Shown here: piece by piece, positions 34,959 through 58,532 of the stretch
Position numbering within the stretch: the stretch's first letter is position 1
How the letters are laid out: each line of letters begins with the position of its first letter
Assembly: GCA_034190875.2 (NCBI GenBank)
Contig: CM067356.1
Coordinates: 51,296,263 to 51,360,262, forward strand
Source of the DNA: Urechis unicinctus
Lineage: Eukaryota > Annelida > Polychaeta > Xenopneusta > Urechidae
DNA: 64,000 bases
Direction of reading: 5' to 3'
Notes under the pieces: generated by a model
Databases searched by the model: none
What the model was told of the DNA's origin: nothing
Seen by the model: only the letters and a program-made list of their open reading frames with translations
Made by a program: the position numbers and the translations under genes

Positions 34959-34976
34959 ATATATATATATATATGT

Positions 34977-35128: not shown

Positions 35129-36258
35129 ATGAACAATGAGAAGTCAGGCGTGATTTTTTTTGTTTCTAAAAGACATATGCGCCGCATATGGGTGTCGAAA
35201 GTCAAGCGTAAACACTGGAGTCCTGCCCTTATAGTTATACGACAGTTCTATGTTCTGATCATTTCGAGAAAAGTGCTGCTCAAAAGTGTAGGATTTCGTA
35301 AGAAACCTAGGCTCCGAAATGGTATTGGCAGCTGAGCAGATAGATAAATCAAGTGACAGTGGTGAATCACAGACTGAGGTGTCACACTCAAGTACTGCCG
35401 ACCTAGGCTAGGCGTCCGCGCTGTTTGCTACACCAGGGGCGAGTGCCTTGCCGTCTGCCGACCATGAAGCTTGCTCTCACTTGTCATTAGGGGTGCAGGC
35501 AAATGTTTTGGTGAGTGTCAAAAGGCAACTGCATTATTATATATGATGAAATGCATTGGCAGGGATAACTTCTGTTGTATGTATCCATATGTCTTTTCAG
35601 AGTCAATTTGTAAACATTTACATCCTTAAAGGCTATGATGAATGAAATTGTAGCATACTTATTGTATTGATACCATAGATGGCTGACAAGTCTCTATAGA
35701 CACAGAGTTCTATCTTTCCTGGGATAAAGAAATATTCAAGAGGTACCCAAGTTGGCCCATCTCACCAAAAGTGTCACCAGGGGCACCCAATATGAGCCCC
35801 AGGAGGAATCTGTTGGACTGGTGGACAGCGATGATGAGATGGAAACAGACCCTGACTATGACTTCACTGACGAAGTGATGATGCTGAGATGGATACTGAT
35901 GATGACATGGCGTTTGAAGAACTGTTAGGTTAATATTGTTTTGTTTGTAGTGTAATCACAGAGTTTTATTTGATGGAAGAAAAATTTAGCTCACAGAATG
36001 CTTATGTACAGTGGTGTTGATCTGGAGGATGGCCCCAGTCAAAGATACCGGGGGAGTTTTGCTTGTTTTGAACAAATCGGCGTGAATGGACACCGTAAGA
36101 TATGGGATTGCCAACCTTTTACAGGAGCTATGCCCGCAGGGAATTTGTTTATGGCTTCAGGGATTTTTGTTAGTGGCAGTAGTGCTATTAGAACACTGAA
36201 CATGTTCAGGTATGGGAAAATCCCAAGCCTGTCAAAGTACCAATTTCTTTTGGTATGA
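35129..36258 (+). pseudogene. THAP plus Kolobok-like transposase relic
   Basis: At 35140-35330 a THAP domain can be read across frameshifts: RRIWVSKVKRKHWSP, then CSDHFEKSAA in another frame, then GFRKKPRLRNG. At 35735-35930 an acidic linker reads QYEPQEESVGLVDSDDEME, TDPDYDFTDE, then after a frameshift AEMDTDDDMAFEELLG. At 35998-36258 an open frame has GHRKIWDCQPFTGAMPAGNL and then SGSSAIRTLNMFRY. This PAGNL/SGS pattern is one I associate with THAP-bearing animal transposon proteins. The catalytic remainder is missing. The order THAP, acidic linker and PAGNL block is that of the intact family as I remember it. Confidence 0.55.
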
Positions 36259-36447
36259 ACATGCACTAATCTAAAATGAAACACATGTTATTTTGACATT
36301 TATTACGGAAACCTGAATAAGTTTCATTTGCACAGACATTGTTACCCAATTAAAAATTGGCATATAATATAACTTACTTATTATATGACTATCATAAAAT
36401 ATGAATATCATTGATTTACTTCAGACTATGTACATCAGGTGCTCGAT

Positions 36448-37749
36448 CTAAGGCAAAAATACCCAAGCTACAGACTTGCTGAGGTCCTTGCAGATGACAG
36501 GACTGTCCAACCACCTATTGCCTCCCAGTACGAGAAACCTGAAAAGGATCGTCTCGTAGGTGCTCACAGGTGTCGATTCAACCTGACCAAGAAATCTTCC
36601 GCTCCATTGTAGATAACCTGTATATTTACCGCCCGGGTCAGGGAAGGATTTTCTAACAGCTGTTACCACACAGGCAGCCAGCACTTTCCTGTTTCTTTTG
36701 CCCAGTCTGTGCCATATCCAGAGTGTAAACTGGCAGTAAGCTAGATACCTGAATAATCTGAAGCAATATGTCAATTAGTTGTCTATGGTTTTAAAATAAG
36801 TTGTATAGTTAAAAAAACAATTGTCATTTGCCAACTATTCCCTCACTTCATAATTTTATTGTAAGCTCTGCCTCTGGATTTCATGTAACTGGCATTATTT
36901 ATTCTTGGCTATGTGAAATATATTGTAGTTCATCAATATGAACACTGAATATTTTACACAGTGGAATTAATGTTCCCTTTGTAATAAATATGATTGTTCA
37001 ACCTCAAACCATCCTTTTTGGTAGCAATAATGGCTAACTTACTCATTGTAGAGACATCATCTCCAACAGGTCTGTCCATTTGAATAGATTCAAATTTGGA
37101 CACTTCCAGCACATTTTTATTCATGCAGCTAGCCAGGAATCTGGGATGCTTGGTGATGCATGTCCATTCCTCCGTTAGAGCCATCACTCTCTCCAAACTT
37201 CTGTAGCACTCTCTGGCTGTGTCCATTGGGATGCAGTACTGACATCTACACCTAAGTTAGAGAAATAATTAAAGAGTCATTGTAAATTTATATTTGTGGT
37301 ACAATGAATGAATATAAAAGGAAAATACTTTATAAACTGCATGCAAACATCTGTCCACAATATTCAATGTGCTCAGGGTACAATGACAAAGCTACATTCA
37401 CTAGCCAAGTACTATTTGTTGTAGCAGTTAGGTCTGTCAACATACCATCCTCAACTTACAGAATGTGTAAATTTATTGGGTAAATGAAACTAACGATTAT
37501 TTTTTACCAGTTAATATAGTTCAATAAAGCTTGGGAAGGATATTCTAAAACTTACCATTCATCGTAATCTTTTGTTGATTCTTCATCCGAAGCGGACCCT
37601 TGAGTTAGACTTAGAGCTCCCGGTGTCATTTCGTAGTGTGACTTGGATTTTTCAACTCCCGTCCGTATTGGCTCAGATAAATAGTCATGGACATGATTTG
37701 TCCCAATGTTATGCTATGGGGACTCGTAAACTTCATCAGAAGACGACAT
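36448..37749 (-). pseudogene. P2X7-C/ZCCI-like zinc-domain gene, three exons
   Basis: Exon 1 (37749-37556) starts MSSSDEVYESP, meets an in-frame TAG at codon 12, and continues to KDYDEW. The donor is TG/GTAAGT. Exon 2 (37251-37043) begins G-TGTAGATGT, so the split codon restores W and gives WCRCQYCIPMDTARE, then TCITKHPRFLASCMNKNVLEV. Exon 3 (about 36745-36448) reads YLAYCQFTLWIWHRLGKRNR, then KVLAACVVTAVRKSFPDPGG, KYTGY. The C-x-C-x2-C cluster, the CIT-HP-F-C motif and the AYRQ-like, LGKRNR and IRK-FP signatures match the zinc-coordinating C-terminal domain of P2X7 receptors and its many stand-alone relatives. No P2X channel part is present. The TAG makes it likely dead, unless translation starts later. 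Confidence 0.6.
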
Positions 37750-38069
37750 GGCTTGTCAAAACGGTGTAATTTTAAAATCCAAATAATCGTTTTTCGCTTC
37801 GCTCGCTCGTTCGCTCGCAGTCAAATTCTCTTGGAGTCAGCGCAGCAGGAATGACGTCACGCAACGTGCACCTAGCGGCCAAATGAGGCAAAATGGCATC
37901 TAGAAGATGGCTTCGTATTTTCTTCCGAATGAAACCTTATCGGTGGATTTTTAGTACTTATGCATGCCGTTGCAATGAATTATGGGTCCCCGTTGGTTTA
38001 TGAGTTATTAATCTTCAATTTGAAACACATTATAAAGAAATGATGAAAATCGTTGTAGTTGACCTTTAA

Positions 38070-41000
38070 TTAATCAACATTTAATATATTTAGTTTGACG
38101 ATTCGACAATAATTATAGATTAAAAATACATTTAAGCAAATCGGCATAGTTTACCTTATCCGTCTTGGACAAACATAATAATTTATTTTTCATATTGTTT
38201 ATCACTTGATAGTACCTTTAATTATTTCGTTACATTGCATTTAAAACCACACATTCTTTCCATGGTATTATGCCTGATATTTGGTTAGCATATATGTCTA
38301 CGAATTGAACGGTGCTCTTGACACTTGCTACACTTGGCATACGTGTGTGGAGACAGCATTGTTTGCTGTGAATTATTTGTCCTGTCGCCTAAGGCATTCC
38401 TAATTTGCAAAATGGAATTAGTATTTCAAACCAAAGGGAGCTGCTGCCATCCCAGTCATATTAAAAGGACTGAACTAAAAAAATATGTCAGTAAGTGCGA
38501 TCGATGGCCATAATAAATCCCAGTTAATGGTTAGGCTGTTTCTTCATACTAAGGAACAACTCTGCGTTGCATGTGTGACCACACACACTTCTCGTTAATG
38601 TGGGGCTTATCATCGAATGGTAACTGCCGTGACATGTACAAACCCACCCATGCACAGGATTCATGTGAACCTACTGCTACTGTGCACTAACATCTCGCTC
38701 GGTGCTCGTGTTTGCTTATCACAAAAAGCGGACAGTGTTAAGAAAGCCGTCTTATATCAACCCTAAAAGCTTTGTAATCTTGTCGTGTAATCATTATTCA
38801 TGGGTAGGAATGCCTCAAGATGGATCAGCGACACAAAGAGTGCATATATTGGAAAAAGGGTTCACTTCGAGTGGCTCTGTGGTAATCGCTTGGCGAATTA
38901 TAATACACTGCAATCGTTTGGAGGCGCTGCCGTTATATAAACAAAAGCACCTGGGAATACTGGGCTGATGTCTTTGCGATTGGTGAGAGCGGGAAAAATA
39001 ACGTTTCACAGAGCCTTTTCGCTGCCATAACGCGTCGGACACAAGCTTGAAAATAGCGAAAATAACAACTACAATATGAAATAAATGGCAGCTTGATAAA
39101 TTATCCGGGTAGACCTATCGAAAACAGTTGGCTTTTCGCAGCGTCCGCGCCGTTTTACTATTCTCGATCTTTAATGTCTGTAGACGGTGATATCGATTGT
39201 CAACAACCTTCTAGAGCGAGGGAACTGGCCGGGGGTAGAATTTAACATTTGTTGGCTTGCCAGGGACAAGTGAAGATCTCGAGCATACACACTATAGCAT
39301 CGCTAAGCTGTGTGGAGATGACATGAAATAAAACGCCGTCATCAGGCGACGATACTATAAAATCAATAAAAGCATATGGGTTTAGTTAATCCTACTACTC
39401 GGGGTCGGCGTCTGTTACAGACATGGAGTCATTTGATTGGTCGAGGCTTCCATGTCTCCTAATTAATCAGAGGAGTCCACGTGGTTATAAGAGACGTTAT
39501 GAAAAACAACGCTCGGCGCCTTACAAGTGGCGTCTTCACATTTTTTCTTGGGTTGCGGCTTGAGTGAACGCTCTTAGCGAAGCTATACACTCTCTGATCG
39601 ACACTCAAAGCACACTTGCACAACACAAGCACCCCACACAAAATCATTTTATTCTGTGCAAATGGTACCTGATAAAAACGAATTCACTAAATCTCTTCAA
39701 CCAAAATGTCCCCAATCGTCTGTACCAGACCAATAGGTGACCCGCACTATATACGTTCGTATTGTGTCCAAAGTGGGTTCCTAAAAATCCAGGGATCTCA
39801 TAAATCTTTGTGTTGGTCAATGCGCTGATTTGTACAAATTTGAAGAAATTAAATAGTTCGAATATTGAATAATATCTCGTTTTTGACCTGTAAGGCTGTG
39901 TTAAAAATATTACTAGTTAGATGTTCTACTAATTCGTTACCTAGCACACTTATAATCCTGCTCTTCGTACTATGTATCAACAACGATTTCAGTACAATGT
40001 TTAATTATAGGGCAATAAGGAAGAAATTTGATTGCCAAGCAATAATGTTTCATTTACCACAACAGTCAAATAAACATTCTTAGTACCATAAACCTTTTGT
40101 TGCGTTAGGACAAAATCAAGCATCGCGTTCACATGACGCCTGGTGGGCACCTTTATGTGTAAATTGTGAGGGAAATTGGTCTTTGCTTTTTACATTCGCT
40201 GACTACCACATATAGCTCAGCATGTCTAATGTGCCGTTCCTCTTTCCTGACATTATTCTGGCGAGTGTTGCTTATTATCATTTCTCTCTGCGTGAAAGTT
40301 TCCCTAGCGTAAGTACAATTAGCACTAAGTGCAAAGCGGCCTGCGCAGCAATTTGGTTCAATACACAGCAATGTCATTCGCTATTTCAGATCTATCAGAT
40401 CCAAAAATACAGATCAGCTGACCATGCCGTTTTGCAGCTGTTACTGGTACGTCTACTGGGCGAGAAGCTTTAGCAACTACTGGTTCTCTGCTATAACTAA
40501 CCCTAATATCTTCATTATTAGTATGAGAAAAGTGTTCAATGCGAACTAAATGAAATATGGCACATATCAGCGGTCAAAGGTTAGCAAAGTCGCATATCAC
40601 AAACCTATTGGACCCAACAAGTTCACTGATGAACAGTGAACGAAACCTACATCCTTCGTGTCTGTATGGTTTGAAAATTTTATTTCAGTGGTATGTTTGT
40701 ACTGTACTGAGCTGTTGTTGCACCTAAAGACACACAACATCCAAACCGCAATCAAAACTACAAGCGTGATAACATGTCTCATCAGCTGTCATAAAGCCAC
40801 TGCACTATTGTGTCATGCACCTCTGCTCTAGAAGTGCCTGTGTAGGCGATTAAAGATGCTCTGAGGTCCAACTCATATCATATTGGTTAGACAACAAGGT
40901 GATGCGCATACATACAAAACACACAAACACATAAACAAACACATACACACAAACACACACACACAAAATACTATAAATACTGAGCCAAACCTAATTTGGT

Positions 41001-42029
41001 TCAATATAAATGTTCTGAATAATGAATGGGTCGGCGAGTTTACAACCCCCCGTTTGATCAATGTCAAATGACAACGAGGCCAATTTGACGTGCTAAAAGA
41101 CTTTCGTGAATTACACATTGTGTTGATTGACCGCATCATGATGATCGCTGGATATGATTGCTTTGGGCACGAGAGGGCGCTTGGTGATATTTCAGTTCAC
41201 TGGACTATAGGGATTAACTTATAAAATAGAAAACTTGATGAAATGGGCTCCATTCTTGCATCTATCATTAACTTGGTTTGAATATATTTCCAGCAGCAAG
41301 TGTTGGATTGTAGCGCGAATAGACCGTACCTATGACTTTTTTAGCTCTTTTTGAAATCAACCGTGAAAGTTGTTTGTCATTACAGCATATTGAGTAATTG
41401 CACATACAGAGATACAAATGACGTTTGGATGATATAAATGTGGTTGTATGTTGTTGATATTATCTTGGCTTAGGTCGCAATGTACGTTAACGATGCAGAG
41501 AGAGATGGATTGATCACATGCCTGGAACCGACGAAAGAAATTGACGATAAAAGCAGAATGTCACCAGTACAGAGCGAGGTGCAATGTTTATTACAGCTGG
41601 CGTGTTATCTACCAAAAACTGGCTCGTATTGTCCTGTGCTCTTTTATTGCGAGATATGCTCTTCTTCGTACAGGATATACCTCTGCTGTTCTGCTGTTTG
41701 TGGAAATGTCACCTTTCTGTAGGCAGGTGTGGAAGATTGTTCGAGGCTGAAGCAATCAGTGTTTCACTTTCTTGCAAGGTGAGTTTGAAGGTCAATCACG
41801 ATGCTGCCAAAGCACCGGGTAGGGTACCTTTCTTTTTTGCCAAAAGAAAGTTAAAGAAATATTGCTGGAACTAAAGTATAATGACCAATAACAATAAGCC
41901 CTTGTACTTTGTATTGCACCCCCTGTGGGTCCGGGGAAAGAATAGGCCCACTGTATCCTTCTGCATGTCGTAATAGCGACTAATAGGGGGCAACCTGTTA
42001 GCCGTGGGTTGTGTCGGTGGACAATGGGA
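38070..42029. other. Non-coding stretch
   Basis: No gene that I can support. A 61-codon minus-strand frame at 40597-40782 begins with a hydrophobic run (MRHVITLVVLIAVWMLC) but does not align with the small membrane protein family. A CA-rich patch lies at 40905-40970. A short palindrome-like CGCTTCGCTCGCTCGTTCG lies just inside the preceding element at about 37795. Confidence 0.4.
41125..41335 (+). repeat. Inverted repeat partner of 21036-21250
   Basis: It aligns with the reverse strand of 21036-21250 over about 210 bp. The short frame (MMIAGYDCFGHERALGDISV) stops after about 25 codons here, while the other copy runs 65 codons. Confidence 0.6.
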
Positions 42030-42322
42030 TCCAGGTGGTTGAGCGGAGAGGTCCTTACGAGGGCTGTATCTGTAACACACCACTTTAGCCCGGATTTCAC
42101 CTAGACGAGAGGCTGGAATGGCCTGGTTCAGTCAATCGGCTGGTGGTAACTTGCCCTAGGATAATCGATTCCATTTTAATCTTTTCCATCTGCATTTTCA
42201 TTTATCCTAGAAGGCGGCTGCTTAATCAGGTCAATCTTATCTTATAACCTTTCTTGGCACCATATAACACACTAGTATTGGTGTGCCGTTAAACCCTATA
42301 CTTACCTTACCTTACCTTACTT
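42030..42322 (+). repeat. SINE-like repeat, copy B, with TTACC tail
   Basis: This is the longer partner of 1083-1312. Past GGCGGCTGCTTAATCAGGTC it continues to TTGGTGTGCCGTTAAACCC and ends in tandem CTTAC units (42298-42322). A short body with a 3' simple-repeat tail is what target-primed retroposition of a SINE leaves. No clean polymerase III boxes were seen. Confidence 0.55.
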
Positions 42323-43894
42323 TGCATTGCACGTGAAAGCATCGTTATTTCGCATTGGCATGTAGACGTAACTACCTTTTTCCACAATTTAAATTAATTT
42401 ACACAATCATACTTGCTGATGCAGTACTGGGCGTGTCTGTGCATGACAATTGGAAAAAGTGATATCAAATATGTACGTATCAACTGTATGAAACATTGCC
42501 AAATGCATCTTAAGTGGTTATGAAACAGGCGGACTGTAGGGTATCAATGAGGTATAGTTATGAGCTTCTAGTAGGAAGTAGAATACAAGTTTAGATAATC
42601 TTCCTTTTAAATGCCTATAAAAGGATGCAACTGTGGTGCTAAATGACCAATGTTGAACCACTAACACCTAAACATAGTCTGCAGGCCATGATGTTTTTAC
42701 AAGTATTACAATTGTCAGACGAATGATATTGCTAAGCGACCTACTTCTGACACCATAGGATATAACAGGCGGGGTTTTTACATGTAACTTCCGAGTACGT
42801 AGAAAACATATGTGCTTTCGGTCAATATGGTTGACAGACATTTTTGTATACTTAAGGTATCCTTCTATATAATTGGATTAGCATTAAATGGCCTTTATAA
42901 GTCCTAACTGATCGCAATTAACTTTGTTTTTAACACAAATAGCTTGAATGTATATTATTTTTTCTGCTGAATTGTTTTTGAGGCTAGCATTATGAATACG
43001 GAGGCCCTGAACCAAGTTATTTTTCGACATTTATATGACCAGACGTATATATTAATGGCAGTCCAGGGACCATAGGTCTTCATCAGACAACATTGAACCT
43101 TTTGTCAAAGGGATATGGCTGATGCATTTGGAAATGTCTGCATGAATTATTTTCCTTTTGATAGAATAAACATCTGGCTAAAGGTTTGACTTGCAGATTT
43201 CTTGAAAATTTACAGGATGTTTGAATCATTTAGCTACTGTAAGCAATAAATAACACTTTTCAGGTTGATATCTGGTTGAAATCTCATTACTGTCTAATAT
43301 GTTTAATATATTAGCGTGACTGGGTTCCTAAATGAACGTACACTGCAATAGGGCAGGATGCGTTGATGTTACGTTTTGGACCCTCTTACAATTTACAATC
43401 CATGACCGGCCTACTGAAAATACATACGTTCGTTCAGCGATTGTCTTCTTTAATCGGTAGCTTTCACAAAGTAACTCACGGAAAGTCGATGTATTGTCAA
43501 AATACAAGCAAAAAGATGAAAAGCGTGTGCATTTCCCTGTGACATGTCTGCTGGAGGGGAATGTTTTTGTTTGTAAACATACAATTTCCATGGAGATGCC
43601 AATGCAATATTCAAAAGTAGAAGTAAAAACTATTTTACATCATTGCATGCCCAACCATTAGCTGACATATACGTGATAATGACGCAACAATGACCATTGC
43701 AAACTAATTTAAAATGCAAGTCTTCTGCATCCCGGATAACGCGGGTTGAATTGCTTATTTATTCATTTGTCACGCGATACATTGCCAACTGCTTACGCAA
43801 ATGACCAGATGTGCATTAGAACAGCAGTATACATTCCCAAGGTAAGCATCATGGCATAAACAGAATGGAGTGCATCAGCTGCTGTAAGTGACAC
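42323..43894. other. Non-coding stretch
   Basis: No recognisable feature. The longest frame (87 codons, minus, 43328-43591) has no known motif. Confidence 0.4.
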
Positions 43895-45134
43895 TTACAA
43901 TAGATCACAATCATTGCTTATGAGTTGAAATGGATACAATCTCGGCAATCAGTTCAAGTGAGGGTGGCCTCTAGATACTATCCAAGTTATTGATCATCGA
44001 CTTACGTCGCATCCGACCGATTTCCCCCAATGGCCACTTATCACCGAGAGTATTCATCAGCATGAGCGTTGCCAAAAACAATGACATCATTGGGCAATCT
44101 TCCTGAACATGAAGGTGTCAACAAAATAAAGGTAAAATCAAAGTCTTTCATAGCTGGTCACTCACATGGACGAACGTCCAAAGATATCCGTATATGGTAT
44201 AAATTGGCCTGAATTCATTCACTCGGACCCCAGGCACATCATCTCGTCATACATCACAATACTACTAAACTCATTGTTAAAATTCATTCATGGTCAAAAG
44301 TACAAGACATGTTACCACTACATACGAGAAACCTTACCCCTGTCATACCTTGAATGACAAAGAAGGCACCCTCTACTGGTCTAACATTTGCAAAATAATC
44401 AAGAGGCTTGAAATTAGTTAAAGGAATTCCCAGAAACTAAACATTGAGATATTTTCAATATCCGTCATGGGCCAATCGTAATCTCGTTGGTGACGTGATA
44501 AAAAACTTTAATGCTATTCATAACATATGTGAGTTAAGGTGGATATTTAACAGCGAATCAACACACCGTACATTGCCGATACTCAGCATTTAAAATATTG
44601 CATCCAACTCACGATGCATACAAAATGTACTACTGATAGCAAACTTGTTGAATATGAACAAACGCACATATGGTACTTCATGTGAATTGGACGATTGTCC
44701 TTGTATTTGGTGCAACTGCTGCTGCGCTGAATTTGCAGCACAAGTGATAATCAGAAGGTATGTGTGGTGAGGCAATGATGATATAACTGATCAACATGAG
44801 TTTAACAACAAGAAAAGTTGCTTTGAATAAGTCGTACAAGGGATAACCTTATTAAATAGACCCCTTTTCATGGAATGAAATTCGTTTACTACGAAGCGAG
44901 TATAAAAAGTTGAGAACAGTTAGTTGACGATCTTTTTTCTCATTTGGTGCTGTAACTGGCTACGCGACAGGTGGCATTTGGTACCATGCCCCGATTTATC
45001 AATCAGCCAGGCTTAAGGGTTTCATGAAACAAGCAAGATCGCGTTCCATTTGCCATCATGTGCCAGTTCATTCTAGCAAACAGCAGTGAAGCGGTTTTAT
45101 TGTTTGTTAGGCCGTTAGTGACCATTGAGGCATA

Positions 45135-47036
45135 TTCGTCCCATCACGGCACAATGATGAATACTTTAGCTCCTATAGTGTTTAAAGAGGACATTCCTTC
45201 GGTTGATACGGTACATACGGGATTTCATAAACGCTTGCTATTAGACATGCAATCTTGCTGGAATGTTTTCCGCTTTCTATAAACGTGCGGAGGTGTTGAA
45301 TGTTTTGTCATATGCTATTCCACGTTAGTATATGCAATAGAAAGATAAGAATAACACAGGTTCATCTTCTGAATGGCTATATTGGATGTGCTTCACTACT
45401 CAAGCAAAGTTAAATGAGACTCGGAGTAGGAACCTCAAGGTCGGTAGAGTACCTAATATGCAAAGTGTGGTTAGTTCAACTGAGTATTGTGCTTGTTAAA
45501 CAGACACATTTGTTAATTTATATGCGGAAGCTTCTCACTTTGCGACAACATCTATCATGTTTCTTTGACAGTAAGTCATGGAAACAGACAGCCGTGGCAC
45601 TAGTATCACGATGCAGACACGTGACACGACATTTCTTGTGCCTGAATGCATGAATTCCTAATAGAAAATAATCACAACGAGTTTAGCTGACAGTTACGAC
45701 TGTTCTAAAAAGGCATAAATTGAACAGCATTTCTTACATTAGAAATATTATGGTGAATCTGGTAACCTTCCACATTTTCAGTAGTATTGGTCCCTTGGTA
45801 ATGGATTGAATCGCCAAATCGACTACCAAATACATAACCCGATTGCAACTACGCGAACGTTAGAGGAATACAGATAACTTTTGCTTGCTAACATGTTGAA
45901 TAAAATATGAAACCCATTGCGGAAAAGAATTCATATCAGTGTGCTAACACACATGCATATGAGCAAGATATGATCAATGACAATGGAATACCTGAATACT
46001 ATTAATACGTGAAACATTAACGTGGCAACTGTCGATCTCCACCCGACTGTTATTGTCATCCAGCTCACTTTTAATTAACAATAGGAATACTAATATAAGA
46101 ATAATTCAGTATATATGCACAGTCAAGTAACTAAACAAATAACTGAACTAATTATCATAATAGTGTAACAAACTAATTATTCGCTTGCTAATGTAGTGAA
46201 AAATTACCATAATTTATTATTAGAAAATCTTCATTAATTGAACTTAAATAGCCCGTGTCTCCCTCCCACAACAACATTCCTTTGCTATGTTCTGACCTGT
46301 CAACGCAAGTGAAGACGAGGAAAAGGGTTAAATAAACGCTGTATAAGCGGCCTAGCTATAATAACATTGATCAATCCAAACGAAGATCAGTAAAGGTATG
46401 GTGCAATGTCGATCAATCTTATTTGTCCTCAAAGCATTTTTGTATTTGAATAAGGTGCTCTCGCCGTTGTCAACATAAAATACAGTAGGACTTGTGCATT
46501 TGGTACTCTTGCAGGTGTCGGTTTCGCCATGCTAAAGATTCCAAATATATCTTCTATATCTTGGTATCGTAGCTATGTTCATTATATTCGATCCATTTGT
46601 GTACAACTGCATCTGTGAATGGGAAATGTCTCCGGCGAAACTGATAAGCGGAAGGCAATCAATCTGGAGTGAGACAGCGATGGTCTGTGACGCGATCAAG
46701 ACTGGTGGAGCAGATATCCTTCTGATACGCCTGTGTTCATTACGTTATTATTCAGGGGGTTGCATAAATAGAGATATGACAGACTTGTAATGCACATGGG
46801 CTGTTGGGCTTTTACTTCCCCTTCACCGGTGAAAACCGGATACACTGACATCTTATCCAGTGTAAGAACGGTCACACATTGCAAGAAATTTGTCCTGCGG
46901 AATTAAATATGGTTTGGGAAGGGGTTAAGAACAAAGCCTGTAGCTTAACCTCTGATGACCAAGATATCGCGTCCTATGGTTGAGGTCACAAGCGGTAGGA
47001 GGTCTGTACAAGGTAAACGACGCAAATGTTGAGTGC
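45135..47036. other. Segment present only in duplication copy 2 (1.9 kb)
   Basis: Copy 1 passes directly from CCATTGAGACAT to AGCAGGTAGCCT at about 6440-6450, while here these are 1.9 kb apart. No terminal repeats or protein motifs were recognised. The flanking CAT/AT bases give no clear target duplication. Confidence 0.45.
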
Positions 47037-49017
47037 ATCAATAGCAGGTAGCCTGCGTGCATTACTGAACGCATGTTTGTCTTTGCATAACAAGAACATG
47101 TGAAGCAGGAAGTTAAAAGCATTGACGTGAGTGAGGGTGGTAATGATTACGTTGTAGGTTAAGGCATAGACAGAGAATACGAGGAGGTGGTTTTCAAATA
47201 AAACATCAACAGGGGTAGGGTTGGCTCGAGCAGCTAATGGCGAATAGCAAGAAGCTACTTACAGTCAGCTAAGAAAATTCCCCAGTTACAGTGTTTCGTA
47301 TTCTTGCGAATCGGAACCTGTTAGTGATTAACGTTCTTTGACGTAATCAATTAAATTACGCCGACAGACCATTTATATCGGGGACGAATGCACAAAACCC
47401 CTTGGGATGCATTAACACAAACTTTGCCTCAGTGACCAGTTCTTTCAAACGGTGTAAATTGAAACCTAAAAATGCCCGCAAATATTTTGTATTTAAGTGC
47501 ATCACATATGTGTGGATAATATGCTCAGGTAGTGTGTAACCTGGAGTCGGTCATATATTGTCTAATGATCTATAGGGTAATAGTACCCGATTATTTAATC
47601 ATTTCAGCTAAGTGACCGCAACATCTTCAACGTTTCCATGCACATCAGACAGGTTGTCTCAGTCAGGGCATTTATGTAGTCAGTCGGGGCTTATGTATGC
47701 TGCAATTACATATACTGCATCGACATGCACATAATATTTCCATATTGTATATTGTCAGAATCATTATATCTTGATTAAGTTGCTCATGCAATTCTTGCCG
47801 TGAATTTGTTTTTTTGATGCATCCGTTATTATACACAGCCTTCTTCAGTTCTCATGATTGCATGCATATCTTCCAATGCTTGTGTGCCTGACATTTCAGA
47901 CTGCAACATAACTAGCATGTGTTAACACAATTAAACAATTCTCATTTCCTGCTTGGTTGATGAGGAAATATCTCGAAAGAATTGCGAATACGATTTCAAA
48001 AGTATGCGTGTAACTAATCTATACGATATAAGTGATAAAGATAACGTTTTCCAGGTCGAATATCGATTTATGGGTCATCGTAGGAGTGGTTGTTTATCAT
48101 GCGAAACGAGGCTTGCATAGCTCTTGATAAGATAGTGCCTAATAACATACGGGTCAAGGGGTCTGGGGTCTCCACTGGGACATCCATCGATCCATTCAAT
48201 TATTCCATTTGTTATAGCAAGAGGCACAGAGACAAGTAATCGTTGGATCCCACCTCTTGTTGACAAAGCAGCGATTGTGTAGGGATAGATCTGAAGTATA
48301 CCCAAAGACATAGCATGCCAGTATGCATGGACACGGTATGCAAGACGTTCAATATGTTACCAAGAAAGGGTGAGCATATATGTGAAAAACAAAATGCGTT
48401 TATTTGCGCGAATCTACATCATAACTACAGAAGGCTACTGGGAGACGTAACAATATTATTAATGCGAGTATCACATAATAATATTAGTTATAAAATATTG
48501 CTTTCAATGACCACAGCAGCTGTATTCTAACACCAAAATACATCCAACCTCACATAAACAAGCGTTTCTTGCATTTGAAAGGATGAATGGCATGGATAGA
48601 TATCACCTGAACACTCAAAAACATTCAATATGTTTTGTAAGAGCATGAGCATATAATTATATGTTCATAGAAACTACAATTAACAACATATATTCCCTTA
48701 CACCAACTGTATCTAAAATAGCATATCCTTCATATGTATTTCTAAATGAGCAATATTCAATCGATATTCTGCAGAAATGATCATAATTTAACATAAATGT
48801 CTCAACGCACGAACGCATTCACATGAAAACTATTGTGGTCATTACTTTCGCTTTACAAAAGCCTTTATAAGTAGCGCTCAACGCATGCACCATCATAGAC
48901 AAAAAAGCAAATCCGTCACCAGAACAATCGAAGCTCACGTTACAGGTTAATTTTACTCTTTTGTTTATTCCGGCCTACTGTCACACGTTAAACTACAATC
49001 TTATATATTGATATTAT

Positions 49018-49230
49018 TTAAGATTTACGAAATAGGAATATGTGCGTCCCAGGAATACCATTAGCTGCTTGCAACTCCTCGTTAGACTGAGATTGCAGCT
49101 GGGCTTCTGAGAACTTGCTGTTCCTACTTGCCATTGGGCTAATACGAGTAAAGTAAATGTAGGAATAGATCAATCCCAATATGGCACACAGTGCCATCAA
49201 TACTATGAGCACAATAAAGCCAATGAACAT
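49018..49230 (-). CDS. Small single-pass membrane protein, family copy 2 (70 aa)
   Basis: The frame begins MFIGFIVLIVLMALC and keeps length, membrane segment (2-27), SRNSKFSEAQLQSQS core and FRKS end of copy 1 with no indel. Three residues differ from copy 1 (L/F, P/S, I/N) against ten synonymous codon changes. The upstream frame that is open in copy 1 is shifted here, which supports a start at this ATG or a splice acceptor just before it (CAGA-ATG). It lies in segmental duplication copy 2. Topology would be a one-pass protein with almost no residues ahead of the membrane segment, unless an upstream exon adds an ectodomain. Confidence 0.6.
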   Translation of the reverse strand: MFIGFIVLIVLMALCAILGLIYSYIYFTRISPMASRNSKFSEAQLQSQSNEELQAANGIPGTHIFLFRKS

Positions 49231-50392
49231 TCTGGTGGTTGGCGAGTTCCTGTCGGATTAAAGTAGATGTTGATGCACTTATCTCTTCATACTCAATCCA
49301 ATAGTAGTACCTCTGGATCATCACCCTCCATTACTTCAGAGGAGAGTGAGAGGTAGCAGTGACCCACCTCTGGACACCTGTGTTTAGTGGTCCCACTAAT
49401 AGCAAAGCAAAGATGCAACCAGAAGATCAATAATAAAACATACTGCGGCATACACAGCAATGAACGCAGCAATGGATAATGTTCACATGGCTAGTTGACA
49501 CAAGAGTTACAACCAAATGTAATCATCGTTCATTGACACGCGAAGTCTACTAATACTCAGGGCGATGGTGCACGTTAGCCAATTATAGCCTGCTGAAATA
49601 CAACTTAGACACGTTTACTTGAATAATCATTCATAATTGGTCGATAATAAAGCATTGCATTGGAAGTGTTTACAACAATAAATATTAGCATCGGCAATAA
49701 TTGAAAAAAATTGTAGTTTAATATTGTACCAAGATCGTGTGTTTGCTGATATTCAGGCAATTTATCTCAAATCAATATTTAAATTATTGCAACTCTAATA
49801 TATGTCTATAAATTATGAGAAAAAGATTGCTTCATATCTATTTTCACTGCGTGCATACTTTGGGGAATTGAATGGATGATGATGACCGGGAAGTGAATGT
49901 TATGCCAACTTTGCGGCATTAGCGACGACGAATTCCAACCATCGACATTTCTATAGACAAATGTGCTTCATATATGAAAGCCTACGTCCCTTCAATCTGA
50001 TACGAATAGCCTGTACGAAAAGCTATTAAGACGCTATGGGTCCCGTGACCCCAATAATTATCCCTTGAAAGGGCTGAAATCTTGAAATAAGATGCAAAAA
50101 AACAACCCAGAACAACATCAGCAGTAGTCATTTGATATTGCACACGCTAGAGCAAGTAGTAGTCATTTGATATTGCACACGCTACAGCAAGTATTGTCAT
50201 TATACAATTGCCTTAACAACTCCTTAATCCTGGGTTAGCTTGATTGTAATAAGTAAAATAGTCGTGGGCAGTGTTAGCAGAATGCTAGGCCCACTTTTTA
50301 ATGAATAGTATCCCTTCCACACACCCTCAATTCCTAAGCCCGACAGACTCTGCTTCCCAATCCAAGAGAGATATGCCTAGCATTAGTGTTTA

Positions 50393-50474
50393 TATAACTA
50401 TATTCACCGAGCATACTGTAGTCATACTCGCCATGAACGGTACACATTGGATGGGTGCCAAGAGCTAACAACAC
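50393..50474 (-). other. Possible signal-peptide exon, copy 2
   Basis: It is the partner of 10261-10342 with the same frame (LVLLALGTHPMCTVHGEYD) and an upstream in-frame TGA in place of the TAA of copy 1. The frame after SYI is lost because copy 2 lacks the following 0.48 kb. Confidence 0.25.
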
Positions 50475-53400
50475 CAGAGACCAGACTACCAGTCATTGCT
50501 TCTCGTGCGATTCTGAACGATTATTATATTATATTATTATTATTATATTATATCATTTATTCGCAAATCAGAGTTTACAAAAAGATATATTAATTAAGCA
50601 ATAAAAAATAAAAAAAATACATGAGTACCAATTAGTTTGTACAAAGAAACACATGAAGCTCATCTGCCTCTTGCAGTGTTAAAGAAGTAAACAAACTGCC
50701 TTCGCGCTGCTGACCCAGTTCTTGCAAAGCGCATATTGTCGCCCTGTCTTCTGCTGATACTACATTAATATTTAAAAGCAATTCGCGTACATTATTAAGG
50801 TTACCTTCATTAATTAATCTTAGTTTTTGGTAGTCTAAATTTAGTAATGACAGACATGATCTTACATTATTCAATACGACAGATGAGCTTACATTAGTGA
50901 GCATAGTAGCAAGTCGAACTTTTGGGTTGTTACTAATGGTGCATTTAACCCAAAAATCCACAAAACGTAACAATAACTGAATGCGTATATCTGGTCTGCC
51001 TACAAGCAGCGGTAAAAAAACGAGACCTCGTTCTTCTATTAAGCTGAAGAACTCTCCTTACACACTTTCGCCAAGCAACACTTATTTTTTCAAGTGACTT
51101 TAAATCCAATTTCCATAAAGGACTACCATAGAAGCTTGTACAAAAGGTATCAAAAAGCCTAGTGCGAACGTCGGTGCGGCAAATGCCGAATCTGGACATC
51201 AAAATGTTAGTACGATAAAACAATTCTCCTACAGCTTTATCGATATTCGCATCGTTGTTTTCATAACCGATATAACTGCCTGGATGAACAACCTTAGAGT
51301 ACTTTTGTAAAATAGCTCCATTCAGCCGTAATTCGAGATTGGTATAACATTGTGGAATATTGTAGCACAGCAGCATACTTTTTTCACTATTGAACATTAC
51401 ATCGTATTCTTATGCGTATTCTTCGCATATTGAAATCATAAGCTCGGCAGCAGTGACTGAGGGAGCAAGGAGTGTTAAGTCGTCAGCATATCCAAATGCA
51501 CCCATAAACTGATGACCGACATGACAACCAACATTACTACGTTCAAGACGATTAAGCAGCTCATCGATATAAATACAGAAAAGAATCGGCGATAACACAC
51601 CGCCCTGCTTTATGCCATTACTGCATTGGAATGCCTCAGACACATTAGAGCCTCATTTAACTAACAACGATTGGTTGAAATACATATAAAGGAGCAACTT
51701 TACAATAGTAGGACACAAACCTCTACGTATCAATAATTGAAACAGTTTAATATAATTAACCCTATCAAATGCCTTCGATGCGTCTAGCATCACAACATAA
51801 CATGGCGATTTTTGATTGACATAAAAATCTATAACTTCTTGAACTACATAGGTATACTAAGAAGTGGAATGGTCTGGTTTACAACCAAACTGGAGGTGAC
51901 TGGTGCTTAAAACATTTGAATACTTTGACAAAATAACGTTATCTAAAACCTTGCCTACAACACTACTCAGCGCTAACGATCGATAGTTATTGCTGTCGCT
52001 TGCCGATTTCTTTTTGTTTTTCAATAACGGAACAATCACCGACCTTGTCATTTCAACTGGAGTGAATGAATGAACAATCATTGAATTGAACAACAAAGAT
52101 AAATGTGTGAACAATTCACGAGTGCCATTTATAATATGGTCCGAATTTACATTTTCATTAATGTCAGCCTTATGGGCCTTAATTTTCTCCACGGCTGCCG
52201 TAACATCACTGACTGAAATATAATGATCAGATTCGCATTTGCCTGAATTACATCTTTGCTCAACTTGGTCATTCAGAACCACTCTTAATCGCTCATATTC
52301 ATCAACATTATATGACACACTATTAAACAATTCTTTGTATTTGGTAGAGAATAATTCACGAATACCAGTCTCACCTCTCACATTATCTACAACTGCTGGC
52401 ACAACACGTGACTTACCACTTCTTTTCTTAACCTCAGACCAGAAATCACGGCTTCTATCGGTTGTTAAAGCTTCCGCCATGCGTTCTACAGACAACTTAT
52501 CCTGATTCCTGACAACCCATCTCGAAATTCTTTTATATTCGCGTTTGGTCTTAATCATTACCTCCTTCACCCAGCCCACAATTGGCCTACCGCTATCGAC
52601 CCATAAATGATGCCAAAATATTGACTGCTCCTTATAAGGATTGACTAGGGTTTTCCAGCCTGCCTTTGACTTTCGTCTTACAGAAGGAATAGCCTTTTGT
52701 GCCGCTAATATACATGCATTAAGGATTGCTTCGTGATAATAAATAATTGCGTCGGTATGGTCAGTACAGTGCGCGTCATTACATTGCAGTGCTTCGTATG
52801 GCAACTCTATATCAGCAAGTAAATCATTGAGTTGACCTTTGAACGCCTCAATGTTAGATGCATTAGCACATTTCCAAGAAGGCAAAGTATGCAATACTTT
52901 GCCCTGCATAGGCACAAATTCAACAGGAATGTCAAGCTCTAAAATTACTGGACTGTGGTCTGACAGGTTATGACCTTCATGTAAGCAATGATAATCGGTA
53001 ATGCAGTGGAACATATTATCCGAAACAATAAAGTGGTCAATACAAGACGTAACAAACGAAAATGTATAATTCACAGTTGAACATGAGCTCAATAATCCAC
53101 ATTTCATACTTTCGACCTCACAAAATGTCTTAAGCAGCGTAGTGTGTCTTGAGTTATCTCTGCTTAGGTCAGTATTAAAATCACCACCAATGACAACATA
53201 TTCAACATCATTATTAAGCGCAATTAACGACCTTATCTCGTTCAACACATCTCGATACAATTCTACATTAATTGTACAGTTTGAGTCGCACGGCATGTAT
53301 ACAGTGATAAGAAGCATTTTAGCGTGGTTAGGTACTGTTATCACGCAAGCACTAAGTCTATTACAATCAGACGTCAGTGGCTCTATTGCACAACCAAGCG

Positions 53401-53913
53401 ACTTTTTAAAAGCAATGGCACAACCACCATATGGTCGCCCGATTAGTAATTGTCCCTCATTGACCCCTGATACGCCAATCACAGTTACATCATCCAATTG
53501 ATTTTCTAATAAGCAAAGGTTTTCTTGTAAACACCAGTGTTCTTGGAGTAACAATAAATTACAATTTCGCAGCAATGAATTGATATAAGCTAAACGATCG
53601 CTAGCATGTCCTTTACAATTGAAAGACGCCAGCGTTAAAGGTGCATTTTTTCAAAAAAATCGAATCGAAAAAAAAAGTTGCTAACTGCAAGAGTACCCTA
53701 AATGGTGCTGATATCCGGATTCCAAAGTTGGAATGGCCGTATATATTTCTTGTTGTTCGTGAATAAACCTTCAATTCCTTATTTTTCACTTCCAGCCAAG
53801 AATAGACCATATTTGGAAGCTCATGTATTATTAATTCCGGAAGCGCAGAAACGTCATCACTCTGTGCCGATTGCCGCCGGCGGGTGTTTTTAGTTGCGCT
53901 ATTTTCATTGCGA

Positions 53914-54108
53914 TAAAGGACGATCAAACCAAGAAACGAAGAAAAGGTGGAGGGAGAAAGAAGCTGTTTATAGATTCAACAACTAAGAGAAGGAAGCGGG
54001 AGCTAGACCAGCTGCGGTCTAACACGAGGGTGTCTTAAGATAGGCATTCAGGGAAGTTAGGAGTGTGACCAACGAAGAAGAAGCTGCAAAGTTTTGCTGG
54101 ACATGTAA
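53914..54108 (+). pseudogene. N-terminal exon of transposon protein
   Basis: It reads KKRRKGGGRKKLFIDSTT, then KRRKRELDQLRSNTRVS. After a small frame-breaking insertion it continues AFREVRSVTNEEEAAKF and, in another frame, LLDM before GTAAGT. This basic, RxxxxxLRxNTRVSxG...WR...EEVAKFLLD pattern is one I associate with the first exon of animal proteins that later carry the PAGNL transposase block. Function is unknown, possibly DNA binding. Further plus-strand exons may include 54595-54830 but I cannot identify them. Confidence 0.4.
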
Positions 54109-55319
54109 GTAATCTCGTAGCCCTACAAGACGTCTGCGTATAAATTCATGTTACCGTTATGACCGGAGCTAGTAATCTCGTTGTATTATGAATACCCTGC
54201 TATCGAATCGGTCTCTATTGAATCGACTTGTGTAAATGTCACCGATTAAATAAAATCTAAGGGCCTATTGTGAGTCCATTGCACCATTTAGATTTGTAAA
54301 TTGTTGTTGCAAACATACCTTACTTAATTTGTAAATTTCAGGTAGAGAAATTATTGCATCCTCTTGACCCTAATTCAATGGCTGGTGATCAAGTTTTCGT
54401 CTAACCTTGCCTGCAGTCAAGTTGTGACAATGGACACAACAGGCATATGCACTCAAGTAGGGTTGGTCAGCCAATGTAAGTCTGACCACTCAACTACACA
54501 CTGACTAAATGTCCTATCAGAAAACAAAATACTGATGCTGCACATGTAATGTGTTCTAGCTATTTGGCCATATAATGCCATTTGTTGTGTTACAGGTCCA
54601 GCAATCGCTTCAACAAGCAGTCAAAGACGTGGTCATCGGTTTAGAGGCCAAGACTTGCGCCCATATACCAGATATGATGACAGAAATCTTTAGGCCCAAG
54701 CAATGCGACAGCAATCACAACAACACCCACAATGCTCTGCTGATGACCCCCCGCAAAATCAGTTTGAACATTGCTCCTGTGCCAGGCCATCTACCCAAGA
54801 AACAGTTGCAGGAGTCTCATTTTGATTAAAAATATGATTTGGAAATTTGTTTTTGTTGAAATGTACAAATATTTTATTAGTCACATTCTTTTGTCTGTTA
54901 ATCCAAACTTTAATAGAAGAACTCATGTAATTGGCAAAAATAATACATGAACTCATTTTAATGTCACTTCTTTTTTTATCAGGGCTAGAATTATGAACAT
55001 AAAAAGTCAAATCTGAAGATAAGTGTCATGACTAATTGACAAAATAATGTGTGCATAATTCTTTTCTTCTGTGTTTGAGAGACGAAAAAATTTACTAATA
55101 TATGAATGCTCATTCCATAAAACATATAGACAATAAGTTATCAGATTGTTGAAGCAAAAATGTTCAGAACAAATAATACCACATGTTTTGTAAGACTAAG
55201 CAATTTATAATCTACACAAAAATACCAATCAGAACAATGTGATATTTCCGGATTAAAATTAAAACATTTAGGCTTAGTATATTACCAAAACCTATTTTGT
55301 ATTAAGCCTGTATACTGTC

Positions 55320-55752
55320 AATACTTGTTACGGAAGAGGTCTCTGATCTTCCTTACACAACCGGAGTTACCCTCCTGTTGCACTCCTCCAAAAATACATG
55401 AATCCACTGAACCAATTGCTGATAGGCGCCGTGTCTAAGCATCTTTTTTTTTGTCCTCGACAACCGCATCCCATAGCAAGTCCACCCGGTACCTGTTAAT
55501 AACCTCAATGACCATCGGGTCAAGCACAACTCCTTCCATCTGAGGTAGTGCATATGTGCAAAAGTCTGGGCTGTTAGTGCACCATTGCCGCTCCACAGGG
55601 GGAGGCATTTCCCTACATTGAAGGCAGATGCAACAGTCTGGGGAAGTGGTAGTTGATGGAGGGTGGAATCCTTCTTTCGGCGGTGTGGGTTGTCGGGTGA
55701 TTGTAAGCACAAACTGTGGCTGTCTTTCTAACCAGCAACTGACCCACCCCAT
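55320..55752 (-). pseudogene. P2X7-C/ZCCI-like ORF inside the nested transposon
   Basis: The frame reads CCICLQCREMPPPVERQWC, CTYALPQMEGVVLDPMVI, INRYRVDLLWDAVVED, then a run of nine A/T shifts it to LRHGAYQQLVQWIHVFLEECNRR-type sequence, and a second shift gives SGCVRKIRDLF. These are, in order, the Cys cluster, central helix region, AYRQ-W-HG-L-NRR motif and the SCVVRKIRD-F end of the P2X7-C family. Both shifts make it non-functional. Upstream minus-strand frames (55771-55956, 56126-56380) may be earlier exons but carry no signature I know. Like the gene at 36448-37749 it faces a plus-strand transposon gene. Confidence 0.55.
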
Positions 55753-57458
55753 CCAAATCCAGCCACCGCACTAAATTCTGAAAATATGAGTAATCAAAAG
55801 TCTTCTTTTTGATGGATTGAATATCTCCAATACAAATCTCTCTCTGTGACCAAAATTGCAAGAAGGTTTTTGGAGCAGCTTTAGAGTGCTAAATGCTGAG
55901 TTGTACAATACCTTCATTTTCTCCTTCTGTGACAGCTCTAAAGATTTAGCAGTCATTCTACTCTGCTGTAGGGTCTGGTTAGTTATTGATGTGTTGCAAA
56001 GGTAGCCACTGCAAACAAGATTGACTCGCTTTCGGCCTGTCGAGGTCTACAAACAAATGAGAACCAATGGAAATTTATGGTTCGATAGTTCAACATTGGA
56101 CCTATTTACTGACAAAGTGATTCAATTAGGTAAGGCAAGCCCAAAAGTACCTTGTTTGAAGAAGGTGGGGCTCCTCTGCCACCTCTTCAGGCTTGTCTGC
56201 AACCTCCACCAACTTGGACACCTGTGTCATGGTGAACAATTTCAAACCATTAAACACATCCTTCCCAGTCATAATGGGTGTATTGAGTTCAATAAAATAC
56301 CCTTGATAAGAATCAAATAATAAAGGAATCAACCTCAATTCCACACATGTTGTCAGAATCTGTACCATGACCCCTTCCACTGCCTCTTCTTGTATGTGAT
56401 CCCCTCCTTGGCATTTTGATTTCCTTTAAATTTGAAAGTGGGTTGGTTCAATTTAATCAATGAATGAACATGACAAGAATAATTCAATCAATAATGTTAC
56501 AGTGTTTTGAGCCAAAAGCCTGCAAAAGTCAGCCAAACCCATACGATGATACATACCACCCCAAACTCCTAGCATTGACGTTTCAGTACACAGGGATTTG
56601 CATTGGCTGGCCGTTATCTTCTCTGTAGGGTTTATGTATGCATAGAAGATAGCGACCCGCCAGCCAATTCAAATCCATGTTTCAGTTCACTATAACCAGA
56701 TAAAGTAGACGTCATGAGGGAGACCCAAGTCCCTTGATTTATAATACAATTTATGAGTTCATTCAGGAATACTCCAATAGTTTGCTATGAAAAAGCACCG
56801 ATAATTGCATAAGAAATAATCAAACTTCGAACAAGAGTCACGGCTTTACACTCCAAAACGTGAAAAACTAGTCAAGAATATCGTTTTTATTACGCTTGAA
56901 CATGCGCAGCCTCAGTATAAATATACTAAGTCTAAGGGCTACCTCAGGGTTCGTTCGCAGGCTATCTGTTGTTAAATTTAAGGTAATCTATTGTACTGAT
57001 AGTGTTCACTTAATTGAGGCGGGTTCTTTTTTATATACAACATTCGAAAACTCCAATCAAAGAAGAAGAAAGAAGAGAAATGTAGGAATCAAAACACTCA
57101 CCACTTCGGTTGCATGCGTTTCCACCTTCTATCGAATCTGCGCTGCGCGTGACGTCACGACTATGTGTTGTCAACAAATGACCCTTCAATACGCATGCGT
57201 CATTTTCCCATCGACATGTGCTCATGTTTGTAAACATGGGTGTGGCCGACAGATTTCGATACGGTGTAATCGACGATATAGCGTTGAACTAGTCCGTAAA
57301 ATGGTTTATATGGGTTCCAAAAGAGTTGTTCTATTAAATGGAGCAAAAAAACCGCATGTCATTTTTTTCAAAAAATGCATCTTTAATTTGTTAGTGGTAG
57401 CCATTTATGTATGAATAAAAAAAATAACAAAATGTGGTCAAGAACATCAACGCGAACT

Positions 57459-58532
57459 TTAGTCTTCGTTGCTTACTTGCTTAGACTTGAAAAATCTCCG
57501 GACACAAACACCTTCGGGCCAGTAATCTGCTGATAGTACAGTATCTAGCTGAGATGCTTTAATTTCAGCCTTGAAACTGTCGAATTTAGACTCAGTACTG
57601 GAGATCTTGTCGATTGATCTGACAGTGACTTGATTCTCCTCGATGAAATCCTTGATGTGATTTATATCAGTTCCCTTGGCGACTCGGTATATAAATACGT
57701 CGCGACTAGGTTCTGGAGCACCTTTAAAAAGTTCTGACTTGCCTCGTGTTGTGCCTGTGATTGTCAGTCGACTTGCTAGACGCCTCCTCGTTTTCTTCAT
57801 CTCTGAGGATGGATACTGGTAACCTTCATCATCATGACTACTTTGTTTCTTTGTTGCTGATGTGTTGTCATTGCTTTTCTTCTGTCCAGTCTTGGGCTGA
57901 TGTACCTCGCGTTGTGATTTCACAGGTTGTTGTGCCGGAACAGCTGTGGCATTTGGAGATACCGCTGCTGCCGCCGCATAGCTTTGTGGAGAACTAACAG
58001 GGTTATTCTCTATCTGATCCAACCTTTGTTCTAAGTCATTCATAGCGTTCAGTCTCAATTCCAATTTATTCAACCTTTCGCATACACTTATTGGATGCAC
58101 CTCAGCGGGTGATGCCTTTGGGATGCGACCCAGTGTTATTGAGTCGACCGCAAACAAGGGAAGTTTTTTCGCGGAATCGAGCTTCATGATTCCCGACACT
58201 ATATCTTGAATAACCTTGACGATTTCAAGCGAGTTACCAGTGTCTCTGTGTCTAATAAGAGCGGGCAGAACCTGTTCGTCGCCCACTCTCCACAACAGTT
58301 CCTTTGCTTTTACAACCTCGTCCAAGGAGTAAAATTCACGGCATGCATTTACAATGCCTTTCCCAGGTGAGTTGTTCACCGAATGGGCCACGTAGGTCAA
58401 AACTGGATCTATGACAACCTTTGAGAAGAACTCGCTCCCGTCCGGCATGGCTGGTTCTACGCGGTTGATTACAGTCTTTAAGACAATTAAGTCAATAACA
58501 CAGTGTTGAGTTGGTCCAAACTGACACTGCAA
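57459..58532 (-). CDS. LINE ORF1 protein (357 aa), intact
   Basis: The frame is uninterrupted. Residues 1-140 are a mostly helical unknown region. Residues 152-176 are a likely coiled coil (LNKLELRLNAMNDLEQRLDQ). Residues 180-240 are low complexity, rich in A, Q, S, K. Residues 265-347 form a conserved C-terminal block starting LFKGAPEPSRDVFIYRV and ending WPEGVCVRRFF, typical of ORF1 in CR1-like and related animal LINEs as I remember them. It would bind element RNA and chaperone it. ORF1 remains open while ORF2 has several stops. It ends 54 bp before the ORF2 ATG. The first ATG may not be the true start. Confidence 0.75.
   Translation of the reverse strand: MQCQFGPTQHCVIDLIVLKTVINRVEPAMPDGSEFFSKVVIDPVLTYVAHSVNNSPGKGIVNACREFYSLDEVVKAKELLWRVGDEQVLPALIRHRDTGNSLEIVKVIQDIVSGIMKLDSAKKLPLFAVDSITLGRIPKASPAEVHPISVCERLNKLELRLNAMNDLEQRLDQIENNPVSSPQSYAAAAAVSPNATAVPAQQPVKSQREVHQPKTGQKKSNDNTSATKKQSSHDDEGYQYPSSEMKKTRRRLASRLTITGTTRGKSELFKGAPEPSRDVFIYRVAKGTDINHIKDFIEENQVTVRSIDKISSTESKFDSFKAEIKASQLDTVLSADYWPEGVCVRRFFKSKQVSNED

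Follow-up and report, generated by a model that had tools for sequence, protein, structure and literature searches.

Two defective TTAA transposon copies, probably of Kolobok type, carry an interrupted P2X7-ballast gene facing transposase remnants in Urechis unicinctus

P2X7 is an ion channel important in immunity. Why should the zinc domain of its cytoplasmic tail recur in the repeats of an annelid genome? The question is raised by a stretch of Urechis unicinctus DNA, 64,000 nucleotides long and hereafter called the window (C15:51296263-51360262), in which an initial annotation had placed two TTAA-type transposons, each with a plus-strand THAP/PAGNL transposon gene and a minus-strand gene for the P2X7 ballast domain, here called KolX. 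We followed up element 1 (35129-38065, plus strand) and element 2 (53639-57382, plus strand) in the window and in its source genome (1,190,315,542 bases, 926 contigs), from which numbered loci (L019-L056) were used for comparison. Both are very probably dead, non-autonomous copies of two Kolobok-type cut-and-paste families, the fuller relatives of which carry a transposase gene and KolX in convergent orientation. The TTAA duplication, the 5'-AG..CT-3' ends, the short inverted repeats, the high copy number and the convergence are read directly from the DNA, and in the predicted proteins of intact KolX relatives the homology to P2X7 spans the whole ballast. All genome-wide lists given below consist of the best-scored matches among candidates, with the window's own copies included where they were scored.

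Element 2 is a complete copy of 3744 bp. Boundary reading and an empty-site test place its TTAA target-site duplication at 53635-53638 on the left and 57383-57386 on the right. Inverted-repeat comparison delimits termini of 22 bp each, AGGTGCATTTTTTCAAAAAAAT (53639-53660, plus strand) and AGATGCATTTTTTGAAAAAAAT (57361-57382, minus strand), which match at 24 of 26 positions when the TTAA is included. The element sits at the start of the second open reading frame (ORF) of a long interspersed nuclear element (LINE), whose frame enters it after MATTNKL. Joined at one TTAA, the flanks restore an uninterrupted start of that ORF in frame, MATTNKLTLASFNCKG..., and the in-frame reading across the empty site is MATTNKLTLASFNCKGHASDRLAY.... 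Genome-wide, 39 of 2012 candidates were scored, and at least 25 match rows, the window copy included, span the whole element at 93-100% identity. TTAA and terminal repeats with differing flanks were found in 10/10 copies read, these being the best full-length matches, in which termini are therefore expected. The split LINE-type element lies on the minus strand of the window (51857-53575 and 57459-58532), interrupted by element 2 near the start of ORF2; we take it to consist of ORF1 and an endonuclease/reverse-transcriptase-like ORF2.

Element 1 is a 5'-truncated copy of a TTAA transposon family of about 3.25 kb, probably also of Kolobok type. Its right end is intact, with the ACCT/TTAA junction at 38062-38069 and the TTAA itself at 38066-38069. 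Both elements had been described as starting with AGGT beside a TTAA; this stands for element 2 (TTAA at 53635-53638, element from 53639) but not for element 1, which is truncated inside the THAP region. A search of the window for TTAAAGGT found no TTAA/AGGT end at 35129. The plus strand has this 8-mer at 53635 only, and it is not diagnostic alone because its reverse complement is present at 38062, 38214 and 57720. The edge near 35129 results from truncation within THAP coding sequence: homology to the copy at L039 runs from 35131, and by sequence comparison the window copy retains only part of the THAP stretch of L039. A complete element starting at 35129 was thus rejected.

The left end missing from the window was read in other copies as TTAA followed by AGGTCAACTACAAAG, and the left end TTAA followed by AGGTCAACTACAAAGATTTT, likewise read in other copies, matches the right end in inverted orientation. 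Family termini were read in loci L040-L056. TTAA was present at 6/9 left ends, located with a query not containing the terminus, and an identical right junction with differing flanks was found in 8/8 copies read, all picked for matching through the query end; one of them was read at both ends and has TTAA on both. The best 40 of 973 right-end candidates, the window copy among them, match at 96-100% identity and 37 extend to the TTAA, while the three copies with both ends among the matches listed are each about 3.25 kb long. Around element 1 itself, the longest 25 of 123 pairs inspected contained no inverted repeats above chance or beyond a (TA)n tract. One such tract, of about 110 bp (34955-35066), directly precedes the truncation and may be connected with the missing left end.

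Is the minus-strand gene truly the P2X7 domain? The window was searched against Pfam in frames with stops read as X, as well as in single pieces. The cut-off used for P2RX7_C (PF20478) was 23.5 bits. The domain was recovered in both elements on the minus strand, as the initial annotation had it, at E=4.1e-5 in element 1 (24.0 bits, just above the cut-off; profile 144-191) and at E=6.8e-4 in element 2 (20.0 bits, below it; profile 74-191). Three KolX exons with plausible splice sites are predicted in element 1, all on the minus strand: exon 1 (37556-37749), with a GTAAGT donor and one in-frame stop; exon 2 (37043-37251), with a CxCxxC cluster, a TTAG acceptor and a GTAAGT donor; and exon 3 (36604-36748; YLAYCQFTLWIWHRLGKRNRKV..AVRKSFPDPGGKYTGY), which holds the P2RX7_C match. 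The phase is kept from exon 1 to exon 2, but not from exon 2 to exon 3 as these are drawn. The Cys-cluster exon gave no P2RX7_C match by itself, its sole Pfam match being PIF2 (E=9.5e-4, below cut-off). Against the PDB, exon 3 aligned with P2X7 in register over 545-592, weakly (E=0.8-1.1) and with several unrelated chains above it; other PDB searches with window KolX pieces returned nothing relevant. Element 2 retains, again on the minus strand, a Cys-cluster piece (DCCICLQCREMPPPVERQWC...; 55438-55638; P2RX7_C E=0.0045 alone, below cut-off), a piece in a shifted frame (AYQQLVQWIHVFLEECNRRVTP; 55356-55442) and a third with the frame shifted again (CVRKIRDLFRNKY; 55321-55361). KolX is interrupted in both window elements, with two frame shifts in element 2. 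When the elements were compared directly, their common KolX stretch aligned at E=0.1 or worse, so that they belong to different families.

Intact relatives at L022 and L019 settle the identity of the window gene. L022 comprises 6.8 kb between TTAA-flanked repeats AGAGGCTGTTCAGCC..., with a 364-aa transposase-like ORF and a C-terminal transposase-like ORF ending at 4747. Its intact KolX of 169 aa, on the opposite strand (4760-5266), lies 13 bp past the C-terminal ORF and faces it. KolX of L022 matches P2X7 structures at E=2.2e-16, and that of L019 (180 aa) at E=4.2e-18, in both cases over about residues 467-593 and across the Cys cluster; the corresponding P2RX7_C scores are 100 and 106.2 bits, above the cut-off. 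KolX has been kept open in L019, L021 and L022. The last two are 97% identical over 6.8 kb, which suggests that the L022 family was mobile fairly recently.

Several further features were noted in these relatives. L022 (5736-6353; CRCKGQCVRRCPCKKNGTNCSTRCFCKVKFCRNRV) and L021 (5741-6337) each have another ORF on the minus strand, about 200 aa long and with densely clustered Cys residues. The L022 version has no Pfam match; we take the cluster to resemble CXC/tesmin-type repeats, and the ORF could be an N-terminal KolX exon or a third gene. At L027 a second KolX fragment, of element-1 type (6334-6808), lies within a few kb of a KolX of element-2 type, suggesting that insertions of two families are nested there. 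A third KolX type, with a 106-aa open exon 81% identical to element 1, is found at C5:54668069-54670671 and C11:29552510-29555110, with an open 194-aa transposase-core match on the opposite strand some 2.02 kb away; further core matches with an identical 194-aa frame are among the matches listed.

The facing gene is more fragmentary. On the plus strand of element 1 we find the remnant of a THAP domain exon (35129-35298; six-frame pieces, with the first zinc knuckle lost and the frame broken), an open transposase exon with the PAGNL motif (35974-36255), and a next piece (DYVHQVLDLRQKYPSYRLAEV; 36415-36609), likely transposase, which is assigned by position only and ends before the catalytic core. 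The PAGNL exon has no match in Pfam and at least 150 scored matches in the genome, the best of 757 candidates. A THAP/PAGNL gene had been proposed for both elements and stands for element 1 alone: neither the Pfam search nor comparison with element 1 found THAP, PAGNL or a Pfam transposase in element 2. A gene of that kind was rejected there. The plus strand of element 2 carries remnants of another, L019-like transposase, and the initial annotation was right in having KolX faced by a transposase gene. The N-terminal remnant (KKRRKGGGRKK; 53702-54094) is 57% identical over 146 aa to L019 8048-8467 minus (E=1.5e-40), and three C-terminal pieces (54550-54823) match L019 5594-5890 minus (E=2.3e-14). 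The C-terminal transposase protein of L019 in turn matches L022 4448-4702 (E=7e-15), and a match is likewise found between the transposase cores of L022 and L023 (E=2e-23). Searched for a catalytic core with those of L022 and L023, the window elements gave nothing better than E=0.03, a match that falls on the PAGNL exon of element 1. Scans of viral contigs with PAGNL and KolX pieces produced 16 and 10 pattern matches, with no relative among them.

Two observations concern other copies of the element-1 family. At C453:4528-9723 the spacing from PAGNL to the right end is 5.2 kb, as against the usual 2.04 kb or so; this may be a longer copy with a catalytic core, or one carrying an insertion. After the element-1 copy in L039 lies a 253-aa ORF (4517-5275 minus) with LDGKHIPIKAPPNSGSLYHIDF, presumably a Harbinger-type nuclease.

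Does the pairing extend beyond the window? Scoring covered the best 150 of 2592 first-look P2RX7_C candidates, all over the cut-off, and the best 150 of 2042 candidates for the element-1-type KolX exon 2. A listed PAGNL exon lies within 6 kb of 46 of the 150 exon-2 matches (0.23 expected), at 780-793 bp in 32 of these pairs, and a listed L022-type transposase core lies beside 13 of the 150 P2RX7_C matches (12 loci; 0.23 expected). When coordinates were shifted in five ways as controls, 0-1 and 0 pairs, respectively, were obtained. Every pair is convergent (46/46 and 13/13), as are the genes in each window element by their coordinates, which upholds the orientation originally proposed. A listed PAGNL exon was likewise found within 6 kb of 26 of the 40 element-1 right ends; the orientation agrees in all 26, and the distance is 2.02-2.11 kb in 23. 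Co-location far above chance in these best-scored lists supports the proposal that a DNA transposon family carries the domain as one of its ordinary genes.

Nor was the domain seen, among the matches listed, to lie mainly outside TTAA elements. Matching TTAA termini flank the domain on both sides at 7 of the best 20 P2RX7_C loci, on one side at 9 and on neither at 4, as judged with terminus seeds derived from elements 1 and 2 and from loci already seen, partly these same 20. The seeds alone match 3 sites in reversed control loci. A terminus search without seeds scored 25-30 in 6/20 loci against control maxima of 17-22; L037 was marginal (22 versus 20), and scores of 21-23 were also obtained at loci where no termini are known. 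A listed L022-type core lies within 6 kb at 8 of the 20.

Has KolX been maintained by selection? We estimated pairwise ratios of nonsynonymous to synonymous substitution (dN/dS) from copies without a stop in the domain, available at 11 of the 20 best loci, L036 among them, a choice that favours constrained copies. The ratio was below 1 in 24/24 computable pairs (overall 0.08-0.79), namely 0.13-0.48 in 10/10 pairs of the element-2-like group and 0.08-0.79 in 14/15 pairs of the L022-like group, L021/L022 being without synonymous change. The four pairs with L027 are the deepest (dN/dS 0.13-0.18 at dS 0.62-0.93). These results support past purifying selection on KolX. For the KolX of element 1, selection was rejected as a claim, with too few readable copies.

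The same data bear on the possibility that the domain genes are host genes captured by, or adjoining, transposons, a cellular P2X7-like exon having been taken up as a passenger. Transposons can carry host exons, and P2RX7_C matches without a listed transposase nearby do exist. However, the three KolX-bearing types (L022-like, element-2-like and element-1-like) are all convergent, and the dN/dS of KolX within elements is below 1. A single ancient component is a simpler explanation of this common layout than repeated capture, and we give host capture only a very small chance of being correct.

Which superfamily is concerned? A TTAA duplication is shared with piggyBac, and the elements might be piggyBac transposons carrying a KolX-like gene. 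However, piggyBac termini next to TTAA are 5'-YY; those found here begin 5'-AG, and piggyBac membership was rejected on that ground. The AG..CT ends of element 2, the element-1 family and the L022 family fit the 5'-RR..YY-3' ends reported for Kolobok elements (PMC9587614). The piggyBac proteins are reportedly missing most of the seven Cys; the Cys cluster is, by contrast, covered by the P2X7 alignments of L019 and L022. The element-1 family moreover has a THAP-like domain, albeit one scoring below cut-off. A piggyBac origin appears extremely improbable. The Kolobok assignment agrees with the 4-bp TTAA duplication (the empty site of element 2 and copies of both families) and with KolX, a mark of Kol0 elements, which is present as one match above and one below the cut-off in the window and as intact genes in relatives. 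THAP DNA-binding domains are described as usual in Kolobok transposases (PMC6004289). We class these families as probable Kolobok elements by their TTAA, KolX, 5'-RR ends and weak matches to THAP and transposase profiles, rather than by phylogeny.

How, then, would these copies have moved? Within the window the domain is quite probably a fossil only, carried passively as an interrupted KolX by deletion derivatives, a reading which adds to that of dead Kolobok copies and does not exclude it. KolX is broken in 10/10 element-2 copies checked; all have the second frame break, while at the first, which falls on a poly-A tract, 7/10 are out of frame. A catalytic core was found in neither window element. 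Against a purely fossil gene stand the open KolX of L019, L021 and L022 and the 128 of the best 150 element-1-type exon-2 matches that have no stop within the match, in a listing that favours open copies. Given a broken KolX in every copy checked, the element-2 family has most likely spread while its own KolX was dead, by means of proteins supplied from elsewhere. In the mechanism that we propose, a transposase with a THAP or basic N-terminus and a DDE core would bind the inverted repeats, excise the element and insert it at TTAA. The window copies would be mobilised in trans by fuller relatives, since both lack a detectable core and the KolX of element 2 is broken throughout.

KolX itself may be a zinc-stabilised accessory of transposition, possibly binding phosphate or nucleic acid via two arginines kept in P2X7. 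In rat P2X7, R546 and R578 bind GDP and are reported to be the GDP-binding arginines kept in invertebrates (Rump 2020, PMC7016195). By eye, they seem to align with arginines in the KolX of L022 and L019, and it is a reasonable idea that KolX may bind a nucleotide, phosphate or the DNA backbone. KolX might further be required for transposition and under selection in its own right; element-1-type derivatives, in which the catalytic core seems to be missing, could then supply or titrate it in trans and so regulate active Kolobok elements. We regard this as unlikely; if true, element-1-type derivatives with open KolX exons in many copies would be more than debris.

Several points count against interpreting these elements as Kolobok derivatives with a functional second gene. 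Firstly, the protein matches are weak. The L039 region corresponding to the THAP remnant scores E=0.0014 against Pfam THAP (19.8 bits, below the 23.9-bit cut-off). The 364-aa ORF of L022 reaches only E=5e-4 against a Mutator-like transposase, below cut-off, and an unrelated Stereocilin profile scores it equally well (E=4e-4). It is called a transposase because of this match and of the DGR.DSPG and VVTD.HP motifs in the L022 and L023 ORFs, which we take to be Kolobok motifs; the third acidic residue of the catalytic triad could not be located in these ORFs. Secondly, the associations are partial: 137 of the best 150 P2RX7_C matches have no listed L022-type core within 6 kb, and such a core is near only 3 of the best 150 exon-2 matches, with one of the three sharing its strand. 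None of the 150 listed PAGNL exons is near a listed P2RX7_C match, nor any near an L022-type core. The PAGNL, P2RX7_C and core lists catch different families. At the 4 of the best 20 loci without termini, neither terminus was found within about 10 kb. Thirdly, the 24 dN/dS pairs are not independent, several depend on few changes and all come from open copies, while the transposase of L021/L022 has a dN/dS of 0.76 on 15 changes. Finally, what KolX does for the transposon is something that we infer.

What this single genome offers is confirmation that the P2X7-tail zinc domain is a standing gene of TTAA transposons, evolving under constraint, with convergence to the transposase holding in the KolX-PAGNL and P2RX7_C-core pairs listed. 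That the P2X7 tail would be a captured transposon gene is argued from homology (E=4e-18) and from Kojima and Bao 2022 (PMC9587614), in which KolX of Kol0 Kolobok elements is described as homologous to P2X7 476-595, P2X7 as the product of a fusion between KolX and a P2X4-like gene, and nanor as a domesticated KolX. The link from transposon family to P2X7 was thus already published in 2022, and we do not claim novelty for the convergence or the genome-wide count. As the descent of P2X7 from a KolX gene is in print, the gain here lies in confirmation, in orientation and in a data set for KolX function. In the literature collection searched, KolX was found only in PMC9587614, the papers listed for ZCCI are on other subjects, and among the records listed for later work none was relevant beyond the papers named.

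Comparison with known systems places these findings. Kol0 Kolobok elements, as described in PMC9587614, are alike in their TTAA duplication, their 5'-RR ends and their combination of a transposase with a second, P2X7-homologous protein; the window copies differ as deletion derivatives without an intact protein, and KolX is here convergent with the transposase. This zinc-cysteine domain across animals, with one or few (<10) genes per species, was reported by Rump et al. 2020 (PMC7016195), the main text of which contains no words beginning with transpos-; in contrast to that survey, at least 150 matches lie above the cut-off in this genome. The nanor and nanor-like zinc-cysteine domain proteins of the same report resemble KolX as short proteins consisting mostly of that domain. 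However, nanor is reported there as a gene of fish, coelacanth and hagfish, whereas the KolX copies found here are repeats. With the ballast of P2X7 (PDB 6u9v, 8tr5, 9e3m, 9e3q), intact KolX shares sequence homology over the whole domain, at E down to 4e-18, and it differs in having no P2X channel part and in standing alone as a gene inside a transposon.

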